The notes below the pieces were generated by a model that searched no databases, was not told the DNA's origin, and was given only the letters and a program-made list of their open reading frames with translations. Shown here in pieces: positions 21,228 through 48,253 of a stretch of DNA of 64,000 bases (position 1 is its first letter; each line of letters begins with the position of its first letter). Origin of the DNA: Alphaproteobacteria bacterium (lineage in GTDB: Bacteria; Pseudomonadota; Alphaproteobacteria; Micropepsales; Micropepsaceae); assembly GCA_947462105.1 (NCBI GenBank), contig CANHNJ010000004.1, positions 1 to 64,000 on the forward strand. The letters run 5' to 3'. Made by a program: the position numbers and the translations under genes.

Positions 21228-22493
21228 ATGGCCGACTCAAATCCCACTCGCCCGTTCGCGCCCTTCGAATGGATGATCGCCCTGCGCTACCTGCGCGCCA
21301 AGCGCAAGGAAGCCTCGGTTTCCCTGATCTCGGTCATCTCGCTGGTCGGTATCGCGCTGGGTGTCGCCGCGCTGATCATCGTCATGTCGGTGATGGGCGG
21401 CTTCCGCACCGAGTTCATCAAGAGCCTGCTGGGCTTCAACGGCCATGTCACGGTGCAGGCGGTGGGCCGCCCGCTGATGAATTACGACGCCGTGGCGGCG
21501 CGGCTGCGTACCGTGCCGGGCGTGACCCGCGTCGCCCCGATCATCGACGGGCAGGTGATGGCGACCGCCTATGGCGTCAATACCGGCATCATTGCCCGTG
21601 GCGTGCGGCGCAATGATCTGGCGACTCTCAAATCGGTGGCCGATTCCCTGACGCCGGGGGGGCTGAACCGTTTTGCCGCCGACAGCGTCATCATTGGCAG
21701 GGGGCTGGCGGACAAGTTCCAGGTCCGGGTGGGCGACAGCATCACCCTGATCTCGCCACGCGGCGACGAGACGCCCTTTGGCACCACGCTGCGCAGCAAG
21801 GCCTATACGGTGGCGGGCATCTACAAGGTCGGCAACACGCTCTATGACAGCAACTTCGCCTTCATGCCGCTGGACGAGGCCCAGGCCTTTTTCAACTGCG
21901 ACGCGAGCGTCACCGCCATCGAGGTGATGCTGGCCAGTCCCGAGAACAATATGGGCCTGCTGCCCCAGCTTGCGGGTGCGGCGGGAGCGGGCACGCGGCT
22001 GGTGCCGTGGCAGAACATCAATGCGGGCTTCCTGGAAGTGGTCAATCTGGAACGCAACGTCATGGGCCTGATCCTGTCGCTGATCATCGGGGTGGCGGCG
22101 CTGAACATCATCTCCGGCCTTTACATGCTGGTGTCCGACAAGTCGGCCGACATCGCCATCTTGCGCACGATGGGCGCGTCGCGCGGCGCCATCATGCGGG
22201 TCTTTTTGATCGCGGGCATGAGCATCGGCATCGCCGGTACGCTGCTGGGGCTGCTGCTGGGTGTTGTCTTCTGCCTCAATATCGAAGGCATTCGCCAGGG
22301 CCTGCAGTTCGTCCTGGGCGTGAAGCTGTTCGACGACAATTTCTATTTCCTGGCGCGCATGCCCGCCGAACTCGATGTCATGGAGGTGGTGTTCGTGACG
22401 CTGCTGGCGCTGGGCCTCAGCTTCATCGCCACCATCTATCCATCCTGGCGCGCGGCGCGGCTCGATCCGGTGGAGGCGCTGCGCTATGAATGA
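21228..22493 (+). CDS. lolC: Lipoprotein-releasing ABC transporter permease
   Basis: [48 protein letters not shown]; followed by lolD. Confidence 0.93.
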
Positions 22494-23181
22494 CGTGCTG
22501 CGCCTAGAAGACGTCACCCGCCGCTTCCAGGAGGGCGTGGGTGAGCTGGAAGTCTTCAGCGGTCTCAACATGAATTTGAAGCCGGGCGAGGTTGTCGCCC
22601 TGGTGGGGCCCAGCGGCGCGGGCAAGTCGTCGCTGCTGCACATGGCGGGCCTGTTGGAAGCGCCCACCAGTGGTGAAATCTACATCGAGGGTGTGGCGGC
22701 CTCGAATCTGCCCGACGGCGAGCGCACCCGCATCCGCCGCGACCGCATCGGCTTCGTCTATCAGGCGCATCACCTGCTGCCGGAATTCGACGCGCTGGAA
22801 AATGTGATGATGCCGCAGATGATCGCGGGCAAAGCCAAGGCCGAAGCGGCGGCGGAAGCGGCGCGGCTGCTGTCCGCGCTGGGCTTGGCGCAGCGTCTGA
22901 CCCATCGCCCGGCGCAGCTTTCGGGCGGCGAGCAGCAGCGCGTCGCCATCGCCCGCGCCCTGGCCAACAAGCCGAAAATCCTGCTGGCGGATGAGCCCAC
23001 CGGCAATCTCGATCCGCGCACCAGCGGCGGCGTCTTCGACGCCCTGATCGCCATCGCGCGTGAGCAGGGGCTGGCGGCGCTGATCGCCACGCACAATTTC
23101 GAACTGGCGGCGCGCATGGACCGGGCCCTGTTGCTGCATCAGGGCAAGCTGGTGCAGGGCACCGAGTTGCCGCGCGCCTAG
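22486..23181 (+). CDS. lolD: Lipoprotein-releasing ABC transporter ATP-binding protein
   Basis: [18 protein letters not shown] (Walker A), [32 protein letters not shown]. Confidence 0.95.
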
Positions 23182-23324
23182 CTATACCGTCGTATAGGCC
23201 CGGTTGCGTTTCCTCGCGGCTTCGTTTGAATCATGGTCACAAGCGGGAGCGCACCCTGTACGTCTCCCGCCCCCGTTAACCTCTGGGGTCATTTCGGTCA
23301 CGTTTTGTTCTTGCATTCCGGATG

Positions 23325-23339
23325 GAACAGAAATAGAAC
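23325..23339 (+). promoter_or_regulatory. Candidate LexA (SOS) box, GAAC-N7-GAAC
   Basis: GAACAGAAATAGAAC; direct-repeat form of the alphaproteobacterial LexA site; 12 of 15 positions match the site upstream of lexA in this window, same orientation to the gene. Confidence 0.75.
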
Positions 23340-23365
23340 AAATCTGTTCAAACCGGGAGACTATC

Positions 23366-23470
23366 ATGATGTGGGCCAAGGATGCGGCGGCGGGCGTGGG
23401 TTTGGTCCTGTTCATGGCGGGTTCGTTCGCCTTCGCCAACGGGGCCCAGGCTTTTCTCAGCCTGCTCTAG
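23366..23470 (+). CDS. Candidate SOS-controlled single-TM microprotein (34 aa), not listed in its own frame start by the ORF track
   Basis: MMWAKDAAAGVGLVLFMAGSFAFANGAQAFLSLL*; GGGAG Shine-Dalgarno-like sequence 6 nt upstream of ATG; 29 of 34 codons end in G/C; one hydrophobic helix. Confidence 0.65.
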   Translation: MMWAKDAAAGVGLVLFMAGSFAFANGAQAFLSLL

Positions 23471-23546
23471 CTGTGGATAGGGCGCCTTAGGGCGCCCATC
23501 CGTCTCGGCCCCGCGCGATACTGCGCCGACACCCTGCGGCATCCTC

Positions 23547-26500
23547 ATGGCTTCCTTCGTCCATCTGCGCGTGAAAAGCGCCTATTCGCTCCTCGAGGGC
23601 GCGGTGCGGCCCAAGGAACTGGCCAAGCTTTCGGCGGGCATTGACATGCCGGCCGTGGCCGTAACCGACAACGACAATCTCTTCGGCGTCTATGAAATCT
23701 GCGATGTGCTCTCCCGGGCGGGGGTGCAGCACATTGTCGGCGCGCTGCTGTCGCTGGAAATGGGGCCGGCGGCCCAGTCCGGCCAGCGCACCATCAAGCC
23801 GCCGCAACTGCCGCTGCTGGTGCAGAATGAAGACGGCTACCAGAACCTCTCGCGGCTGCTGTCCGCCGCCTATCTCGAGGTCGGCCCCGGCGACTGGCCG
23901 CATGTCACCGGCGAGACGCTTGTCGCCCATGCCGATGGCCTGATCGCGCTGACCGGCGGGCCGGGCGGCCCCATCAACCGCCTGCTGGTGGAAGGCCAGC
24001 GCGCGGCGGCGGAAAGCCTGCTCGACCGGCTGGCCGCGATGTTCCCCCATCGCCTCTATGTCGAGTTGCAGCGCCACGGCCTGGCCGAGGAGCGCGCCGC
24101 CGAGGATGCGCTGCTGGACATGGCCTATGCCCGGGGCCTGCCGCTGGTGGCGACCAACGATGTTCATTTTGGCGCCGCCTCGATGTACGAGGCCCATGAC
24201 GCGCTGCTGTGCATTGCCGGTGGCACCTTCGTCAGCCAGGACGACCGCCGCCGCCTGACAAAGGAGCATCGCTTCAAGACGCCGGCCGAGATGGCGGTGG
24301 TATTCGCCGACCTGCCCGAAGCAATCGAGAATACGGTGGAGATCGCGCGCCGCTGCGCCTTTGTGCCCAAGAAGCGCAAGCCGATCCTGCCGGTGTTCAC
24401 GCCGCCTTCCGGCCTGACGGCGGAAGACGAACTGAAAGCGCAGGCGCAAGCCGGCCTGAAGGCGCGCATGGCCAGTGCCAAGTCGCTGTATGCGGAAGAG
24501 GCCGCCTATCACGAACGCCTGGCCTATGAGCTGGGCATCATCAATCACATGGGCTTTCCCGGTTACTTCCTGATCGTGTCCGACTTCATGAAGTGGACGC
24601 GGGCTCAGGGCATTCCGGTCGGCGTGCGTGGTTCGGGCGCGTCGTCGCTGGTGGCCTGGGCGCTGGACATCACCAACCTTGATCCGCTGCGTTTCGGCCT
24701 GTTCTTCGAGCGTTTCCTCAATCCCGAACGCCAGTCGATGCCGGACTTCGATATCGATTTCTGCCAGGAGCGGCGCGACGAGGTCGTGCGCTATGTCCGG
24801 GGCAAGTATGGCCATGACCGCGTGGCGCAGATCATGGCGCTGGGTTCGTTGCAGGCCCGCGCGGCGGTGCGCGATGCGGGGCGCGTGCTGCAGATGCCGC
24901 TGGGCCTGGTGGATCGCATCGCCAAGATGATCCCCAACCCGCCGGGCAAATCCATCACCCTGGACGAGGCGATCGAGAGCGAGCCACGGCTGCAGCAGAT
25001 CGCCGAGACCGAGCCGCTGGCGCAGCGCCTGTTCGAGATCACCAGCAAGATCGAGGGGCTCTACCGCCACGCCTCCACCCATCCGGCGGGCGTGGTGATC
25101 GGCGACCGGCCGCTGCCGGAGATTCTGCCGCTGTATCGCGATGCGCGCTCCGACATGCCGGTGACGCAGTTCGACTATGAGGATGCGGAGAAGGCCGGGC
25201 TGGTGAAGTTCGACTTTCTCGGCCTCAAGACCCTGACCGTCATCGCCAAGGCCGAAGCGCTGCTGAGCCTGCGCGACATCACGCTGCGCACCCAGGACAT
25301 CGATTTCGACGATCCCGGCACCTTCGAGATGCTGGCGCGCGGCGACAGTGTCGGCGTCTTCCAGCTTGAAGGCGCGGGCATGCGCGACCTGCTGCGCAAG
25401 ATGAAGCCCGACCATATCAACGACCTGGTGGCGCTGGTGGCGCTTTATCGCCCGGGCCCGATGGATTCGATCCCGACCTATATCGCGCGCAAGAACGGCA
25501 AGGAGGTGGTGGAGTATCTGCATCCCTTGCTGGAGCCGATCCTGCGCGAAAGCTACGGCGTCATGACCTATCAGGATGACGTCATGCGCATCGCCCGCGA
25601 ATTGGCGGGCTACACGATGGGCGAGGCCGACATCCTGCGCCGCGCTATGGGCAAGAAGATTCCGGCGGAGATGATTCCGCAGCGCAAGAAATTCCTCACC
25701 GGCGCGGCCGAACGCAACATCGCCCAGAACGTCGCCGAGCAGATCTTCGAACAGGCGGAAAAGTTCGCCGGTTACGGCTTCAACAAGGGCCATGCCGCCG
25801 CCTATGCCCAGGTGGCGTACCAGACGGCCTATCTGAAGGCGAACTATCCGGTCGAATTCCTCGCCGCCTCGATGACGCTGGATATCGGCAACACCGACCG
25901 GCTCAACATCTTCCGGCAGGAAGCGCAGCGCCTGGGCGTGACCATCGCCGCGCCGGACGTCAACCGCTCCGAATCCGTTTTCTCGGTCGATGCGGCCAAG
26001 AACACCGTCTTCTACGCGCTGGCCGCCGTGAAGGGTGTTGGCCCCCAGGCGATGGATCATGTCGTGGTGGTGCGCCGCGCCGGTGGTCCCTTCACGTCGA
26101 TCTCCGACTTCGCCGCCCGCGTCGATCCCCGCCAGGTCGGCAAGCGCGCCTTTGAAAATCTGGTGCGGGCCGGCGCGTTCGACAGCCTCAATCCCAACCG
26201 GCGGCAACTGGTGGAGAATTCCGACCGTATTCTTTCCGGCGCACAGGCGGCGCAGCGCGAGCGCGAGACTGGGCAGAACAATCTGTTCGGCGGTGAGGCG
26301 CAGTCATCCGAGCTGCGCCTGTCGCCGATGCCGGACTGGCCGCTGCACGAACGGCTGGGCGAAGAGTTCGGCGCGATGGGATTCTATCTTTCCGGCCATC
26401 CGCTCGATTCCTATGGCAACGCGCTGAAGCGGCTGGGGGCAGTGACCTATGCCTCGCTGACCGAGGATCGCCGCCGCGCCGGTTTCAAGGCCAAGATCGC

Positions 26501-26960
26501 GGGCACGCTGATCAAGAAATCCGAACGGCGCGGCCGCAACGACCAGATGTATGCCTTTGTCTCTTTCTCCGATCCCACCGGCATGTTCGAAGTCATGCTG
26601 TTCCCCGAGGTGCTGCAGGCCAGCCGTCCGCTGCTGGAAGCGGGCAAGTCGCTGCTCGTCACCGCCTCGGCGGAATGGGATGGCGATGAACTGAAGCTGC
26701 GCGCTGCGTCCATCGTCGATCTTGATGCGGCGGCGGCGCAGGCGGGCGAGGGCATGGTGGTGCGGCTGGCCGATGTCGCCCATCTGGGCGCGTTCCAGGC
26801 GGAACTGAGACAATCGGGCAAGGGGCTGGTGAGTGTCGTGGTGCCCATCAGCGGTGGCGCGGAAGTCGAGATCGCCCTGAAGGAACGGGTGCAGGTGACA
26901 CCGCTGTTGCGCAACAAGATTGCGACGTTGCCCGGCGTGCTCGCCGTGGAAGCGGTTTAA
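23547..26960 (+). CDS. dnaE: DNA polymerase III subunit alpha
   Basis: FVHLRVKSAYSLLEGAVRPKEL (PHP), PDFDIDFCQERRDEVVRYVRGKYG, YRPGPMDSIPTYIARKNG; 1137 aa. Confidence 0.97.
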   Translation: MASFVHLRVKSAYSLLEGAVRPKELAKLSAGIDMPAVAVTDNDNLFGVYEICDVLSRAGVQHIVGALLSLEMGPAAQSGQRTIKPPQLPLLVQNEDGYQNLSRLLSAAYLEVGPGDWPHVTGETLVAHADGLIALTGGPGGPINRLLVEGQRAAAESLLDRLAAMFPHRLYVELQRHGLAEERAAEDALLDMAYARGLPLVATNDVHFGAASMYEAHDALLCIAGGTFVSQDDRRRLTKEHRFKTPAEMAVVFADLPEAIENTVEIARRCAFVPKKRKPILPVFTPPSGLTAEDELKAQAQAGLKARMASAKSLYAEEAAYHERLAYELGIINHMGFPGYFLIVSDFMKWTRAQGIPVGVRGSGASSLVAWALDITNLDPLRFGLFFERFLNPERQSMPDFDIDFCQERRDEVVRYVRGKYGHDRVAQIMALGSLQARAAVRDAGRVLQMPLGLVDRIAKMIPNPPGKSITLDEAIESEPRLQQIAETEPLAQRLFEITSKIEGLYRHASTHPAGVVIGDRPLPEILPLYRDARSDMPVTQFDYEDAEKAGLVKFDFLGLKTLTVIAKAEALLSLRDITLRTQDIDFDDPGTFEMLARGDSVGVFQLEGAGMRDLLRKMKPDHINDLVALVALYRPGPMDSIPTYIARKNGKEVVEYLHPLLEPILRESYGVMTYQDDVMRIARELAGYTMGEADILRRAMGKKIPAEMIPQRKKFLTGAAERNIAQNVAEQIFEQAEKFAGYGFNKGHAAAYAQVAYQTAYLKANYPVEFLAASMTLDIGNTDRLNIFRQEAQRLGVTIAAPDVNRSESVFSVDAAKNTVFYALAAVKGVGPQAMDHVVVVRRAGGPFTSISDFAARVDPRQVGKRAFENLVRAGAFDSLNPNRRQLVENSDRILSGAQAAQRERETGQNNLFGGEAQSSELRLSPMPDWPLHERLGEEFGAMGFYLSGHPLDSYGNALKRLGAVTYASLTEDRRRAGFKAKIAGTLIKKSERRGRNDQMYAFVSFSDPTGMFEVMLFPEVLQASRPLLEAGKSLLVTASAEWDGDELKLRAASIVDLDAAAAQAGEGMVVRLADVAHLGAFQAELRQSGKGLVSVVVPISGGAEVEIALKERVQVTPLLRNKIATLPGVLAVEAV

Positions 26961-48238: not shown

Positions 48239-48253
48239 GTTCTACTTTAGTTC
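48239..48253 (-). promoter_or_regulatory. LexA box upstream of lexA (GAAC-N7-GAAC on the coding strand)
   Basis: GTTCTACTTTAGTTC on + strand, 42 nt from the lexA ATG. Confidence 0.85.

Follow-up and report, generated by a model that had tools for sequence, protein, structure and literature searches.

Caulobacter SidA is a 29-residue inner-membrane peptide under LexA control that is induced early and interacts with FtsW and FtsN (PMC4211646, PMC12700426). Its induction by DNA damage proceeds via RecA and LexA (PMC12700426), and it blocks division at FtsW/FtsI/FtsN (PMC4211646). According to the proposal of its authors, SidA holds the late divisome inactive, and lexA-deleted cells filament less when sidA is deleted as well (PMC4211646, PMC12700426). 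DidA, also from Caulobacter, is a damage-induced division inhibitor of 71 amino acid residues with a single transmembrane (TM) helix, acts on the late divisome, binds FtsN and is SOS-independent (DriD) (PMC4211646). YneA from Bacillus and SosA from Staphylococcus are described as SOS-induced membrane division inhibitors, with YneA interacting with FtsW (PMC13396833, PMC6851548). DinQ is reported to be a small SOS-induced single-TM peptide with an action other than a division block (PMC3567139). Here, an open reading frame (ORF) of 34 codons is described that lies between lolD and dnaE in the first 64,000 nucleotides of contig CANHNJ010000004.1 from a member of the Micropepsaceae; this whole stretch is referred to as the window. 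The ORF probably encodes a divergent SidA ortholog that is repressed by LexA and blocks late division via FtsW/FtsI/FtsN.

Conservation of the microprotein gene

Within positions 22900–23700, the space between the end of lolD (23181) and the start of dnaE (23547) contains a LexA-type box, a GGGAG motif and the ORF (Table 1). The encoded peptide has a hydrophobic stretch and is modelled by AlphaFold2 as a single helix from residue 2 to 33 with a mean predicted local distance difference test (pLDDT) score of 96.6, and 29 of the 34 codons end in G or C. Both the single TM helix and this third-position composition had been claimed in the original prediction, a reading of the DNA without database searches, and both were confirmed.

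The peptide was searched for in 60 relatives besides the window genome itself, a sample with 37 genomes of the genus. It was present in 34 of these 37, the own genome counted; the three genomes without a match are 58–74% complete. Thirty genus loci were examined in detail for ORF, box and dnaE. The ORF length ranges between 30 and 36 residues, with W, D and G invariant and K, A and L nearly so. Codon position 3 is the most variable, and closely related pairs differ mostly by synonymous and by few nonsynonymous changes. The pooled ratio of nonsynonymous to synonymous differences (pN/pS) was 0.46 in the ORF frame, compared with 1.04 and 1.56 for the two alternative frames. Judged by its sequence, the ORF is a real, conserved gene under purifying selection.

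The GGGAG motif was originally placed at a good distance from the start. This holds with 6 nt to the first ATG; the second, adjacent ATG lies 9 nt away. As the peptides of genus relatives begin mostly with M-W or MAW, the true start could be either of the two ATGs.

LexA box and candidate promoter

The box GAACAGAAATAGAAC was found as predicted, a perfect GAAC-N7-GAAC whose end lies 26 nt before the ATG at 23366. A perfect box 39–70 nt 5' of the start is common to all 30 genus loci. Like sites in the window genome precede lexA, recA, uvrA, ssb, a PcrA/UvrD-type helicase gene, recG and a Y-family polymerase gene. The site before lexA, GAACTAAAGTAGAAC (48239–48253, minus strand), shares 12 of 15 positions with the microprotein box, in agreement with the original count.

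The proposed promoter TTGCAT-17-TAGAAC also fits the sequence as a candidate: TTGCAT occupies 23311–23316 and TAGAAC 23334–23339, so that the −10 element covers the second GAAC. Across the genus loci the box sits between or over the −35 element (TTGACA or TTGNNN) and the −10 element; the −35 element begins with TTG in nearly all of them and reads TTGACA in many. A putative second, degenerate site of opposite orientation abuts the −35 element (Table 1). Its GTTC half is present in 30/30 genus loci, the form GRTC-N7-GTTC in 25/30 and a perfect GTTC-N7-GTTC in 2/30. In its sequence, the microprotein gene has all the hallmarks of LexA control.

The box pattern taken alone is weak evidence: it occurs three times in the window versus 1.05 times expected from shuffled sequences, which is near chance, and 44 times genome-wide versus 20 for a reversed control. 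This count favours the reading that the ORF and the GAAC-N7-GAAC before it both arose by chance. Such a coincidence is nevertheless refuted, with a negligible residual probability, because of the conservation (34/37 genomes, 30/30 boxes) and the purifying-selection signature.

A further GAAC-N7-GAAC on the minus strand within the ORF (23410–23424) was judged a chance match. As with the putative second site beside the −35 element, a GTTC pair lies ahead of the GAAC pair in families f117 and f57. On the minus strand of locus L326 (G000:C15:24500-26500), an ORF of 59 residues (MTDLGFELLETHGG...) without a Pfam match begins soon after GTTCTTGATTTGTTC and is possibly another small LexA-controlled gene.

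The region between the microprotein gene and dnaE

Two elements follow the ORF, CTGTGGATA, which starts immediately after the microprotein stop, and CGATACTG. Elements similar to CTGTGGAT[AG] were present in 27/30 genus loci and elements similar to CGATACTG in 18/30, with a spacing of usually about 45 nt; together they probably represent a separate dnaE control region. CTGTGGATA has some likeness to a DnaA box.

This region bears on the proposal that box and ORF form a leader of dnaE, in which the box would make dnaE damage-inducible and the ORF would be an upstream leader peptide. Most genus loci do have the ORF about 90–140 nt ahead of the region in which dnaE starts, and read-through is possible. 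Still, the proposal is very improbable given the conserved separate control region, the insertion of another gene between ORF and dnaE in four genomes, a very variable gap length (reaching some 350 nt in Caulobacteraceae), the selection acting on the amino-acid sequence of the ORF and the known independent product of Caulobacter sidA (PMC4211646).

dnaE adjoins the microprotein gene directly in 26 of the 30 genus loci. The extra gene is found in L018, L022, L025 and L026; that of L025 was identified as a DUF3788 gene, and the inserts of the other three look similar. dnaE was read behind the insert in L018, L022 and L026, and its presumed place behind that of L025 is taken from the near-identical sister L026.

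The position before dnaE in other families

Caulobacteraceae, among them genomes named as C. vibrioides and Phenylobacterium, encode the 29-aa SidA (NF033228) directly upstream of dnaE and behind LexA boxes. Family f63 has 29-residue peptides in this position, and a scan of named genomes located such 29-residue loci in Caulobacter, Phenylobacterium and Brevundimonas. The Caulobacter-type peptide is SidA according to NCBIfam NF033228 (E 2e-20). In many Phenylobacterium loci lolD flanks sidA on the other side, as in the window. The half-remembered neighbourhood of sidA and dnaE in the original prediction thus holds. It was established from the named Caulobacteraceae loci and not from the papers giving the gene numbers, CCNA_02004 for sidA (PMC10769358) and CC1926 for dnaE (PMC1839093).

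The suggested comparison of dnaE-upstream regions was extended to 104 genomes from 72 other families, picked by dnaE alone. This sample leans towards genomes with a dnaE most like that of the window, so that the proportion of families found to carry the gene is a biased estimate. A perfect box upstream of dnaE was found in 18 of the 104 genomes (shuffled regions: mean 1.45, maximum 4), and in 14 a TM micro-ORF came after the box (shuffled regions: mean 0, maximum 0). The genus profile searched against the class gave one clear lead, the microproteins of family f122, located before dnaE with a LexA box. Other class-wide weak matches lay mostly inside long frames and were dropped; those retained all precede dnaE and have a box.

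Hydrophobic-helix micro-ORFs, mostly with a LexA box, also precede dnaE in L079, L136 (f117), L105 (f91), L111 (f57) and L068 (f138). The SidA-like model did not match these five, which are too diverged, and by position they may be further members or replacements.

Homology of the window peptide and SidA

A link between the two peptides was obtained through intermediate (bridge) families. In profile comparisons, the genus profile matched the bridges with a probability of 92% and the bridges matched SidA with 95%, far above column-permuted controls. Along the chain f1 – f122 – f9/f4 – SidA each link reached at least 94%. The permuted and shuffled controls preserve composition, but not every feature of membrane peptides.

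A bridge-only model was built from the peptides of f82, f9, f4 and f127, which had been found by position and box and not by likeness to either end. It was applied to the loci translated in all six frames, some 1,950 segments for each group, with genus and SidA sequences kept out of the model. The microprotein was the top segment in 29/30 loci of the window genus and in 29/30 Caulobacteraceae loci. With best E-values of 0.0065 and 1.2e-5, respectively, the scores are modest, and the weight rests on the consistent ranking. A combined model searched against all dnaE-upstream regions gave 17 matches with E<0.01, all 17 with a perfect box, and matched f18 and f124 though these were not part of it. 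With the model of SidA plus bridges the microprotein was the best match in just 16 genus loci, because the 11 bridges are outweighed by 40 SidA rows.

Several points weigh against homology with SidA. NF033228 (cut-off 35 bits) gave no match to the window peptide at E≤1, and hence none reaching the cut-off of this curated equivalog, and no match in the window genome at E≤0.1. The direct profile comparison of genus and SidA yielded a probability of 4%; the alignment to Caulobacter SidA suggested at the outset accordingly does not work alone. A SidA-only model did not detect the genus microproteins, and Pfam and NCBIfam had no match to the window peptide. The SidA core GFVWM is not kept in the window genus. 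Furthermore, homology among short hydrophobic peptides leans here on 11 bridge sequences from fewer lineages, two of which (f122) initially came from a weak match of the genus profile. Nonetheless, descent shared with SidA is well supported by way of the bridge families, not by direct comparison. The window gene displays the traits of the wider SidA-like lineage, namely the position before dnaE, a LexA box, a length of about 30 residues and one TM helix. The original suggestion of a SidA analogue or ortholog is thus favoured by position, box and bridge-family links.

Table 1 Features of the locus and of related sites in the window
Feature	Position	Strand	Remarks
SidA-like microprotein gene, 34 aa, MMWAKDAAAGVGLVLFMAGSFAFANGAQAFLSLL	23366–23470	+	34 codons and TAG
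Predicted LexA box (operator), GAAC-N7-GAAC, GAACAGAAATAGAAC	23325–23339	+	From sequence; box common to the genus loci
Candidate promoter, TTGCAT-17-TAGAAC	23311–23339	+	−10 element overlaps the LexA box; conjectural
Possible second, degenerate LexA site, opposite-facing	23296–23310	−	GGTC-N7-GTTC on the plus strand; abuts the −35 element; putative
Shine-Dalgarno motif, GGGAG	23355–23359	+	G/A-rich purine tract similarly placed in relatives
Elements CTGTGGATA (23471–23479) and CGATACTG (23516–23523)	23471–23523	+	Conserved in the genus
lolD, upstream neighbour	22486–23181	+	Best-scoring NCBIfam model TIGR02211, E 1.9e-77, but under the curated cut-off
dnaE, downstream neighbour	23547–26960	+	NCBIfam NF004226, over cut-off
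lexA of the window genome	47460–48218	−	TIGR00498, over cut-off; own box 48239–48253

Proposed function

The gene itself, its conservation, the placement of its box among LexA-type sites and the common descent with SidA are well supported at the sequence level. From these we infer that LexA binds the box and that the gene is induced, and also the membrane topology of the peptide, its block of division and its target. In the undamaged cell, LexA on GAAC-N7-GAAC would cover the promoter, and the weaker opposite-facing site beside the −35 element would perhaps provide a second LexA contact. Upon DNA damage, activated RecA would lead to cleavage of LexA and the peptide would be made. It would enter the inner membrane by its one helix, the N-terminus probably inside, and keep the late septal complex FtsW/FtsI/FtsN inactive until repair is complete. 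The window genome holds two proteins of the FtsW/RodA family, both under the FtsW cut-off.

Position, operator, size, helix and descent are as for SidA, and division inhibition via FtsW/FtsI/FtsN is therefore the best-supported function, carried over a wide homology gap. Since the GFVWM core is unconserved, the target surface of the window peptide may differ. The absence of this core and the miss by the curated SidA model would also suit a LexA-controlled membrane microprotein, SidA homolog or not, that acts otherwise, for example through membrane depolarisation (TisB-/DinQ-like) or through contact with a different envelope protein. Single-TM peptides of small size that are SOS-induced but act in another way do exist, as in the case of DinQ (PMC3567139). 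Position, operator and descent speak for a SidA-type action instead, and we regard another action as unlikely.

Distribution of SidA-type inhibitors

In the sample searched, matches of the curated SidA model above its cut-off are confined to Caulobacteraceae, and SidA therefore appears as a speciality of this lineage. The combination of lolD, LexA box, TM micro-ORF and dnaE, in contrast, retrieved candidate relatives of SidA from about nine of the sampled families, which suggests a damage checkpoint spread over several families of Alphaproteobacteria instead of a Caulobacter speciality. We lean slightly towards a LexA-controlled SidA-type brake beside dnaE being an ancestral checkpoint in a large part of the class. 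It would have been overlooked outside Caulobacteraceae as a tiny, fast-diverging peptide in a persistent position behind a persistent operator. No report of SidA outside Caulobacteraceae was found in the open-access literature, a provisional result. In each lineage, the SidA-type helix may have evolved together with the divisome. Should the relatives act alike, they would form a natural variant set for mapping the residues that bind FtsW and FtsN, and short genes beyond the reach of profile searches would be recoverable through position and regulation.

Comparison with known systems

By description, YneA and SosA resemble the presumed product of the window gene as SOS-induced membrane division inhibitors, and their hosts are Gram-positive. 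DidA is alike, again by description, as a single-TM division inhibitor of the damage-response type; it differs in its 71 residues, its SOS independence (DriD), its binding to FtsN and its locus. SidA shares with the window peptide the dnaE-adjacent position, often with lolD on the opposite side, one or more upstream LexA boxes, a length of about 30 residues, one TM helix, a short charged N-terminal [KR]-[DE] and the link through the bridge families. The two differ in length (29 residues in SidA, 34 in the window peptide) and in their cores, which read W-x-K-D-A-x-x-G...F in the window peptide and R-[ED]...GFVWM in SidA. The boxes differ as well: the window has one perfect and one degenerate, opposite-facing site, whereas sidA of Caulobacteraceae often has two in the same direction.
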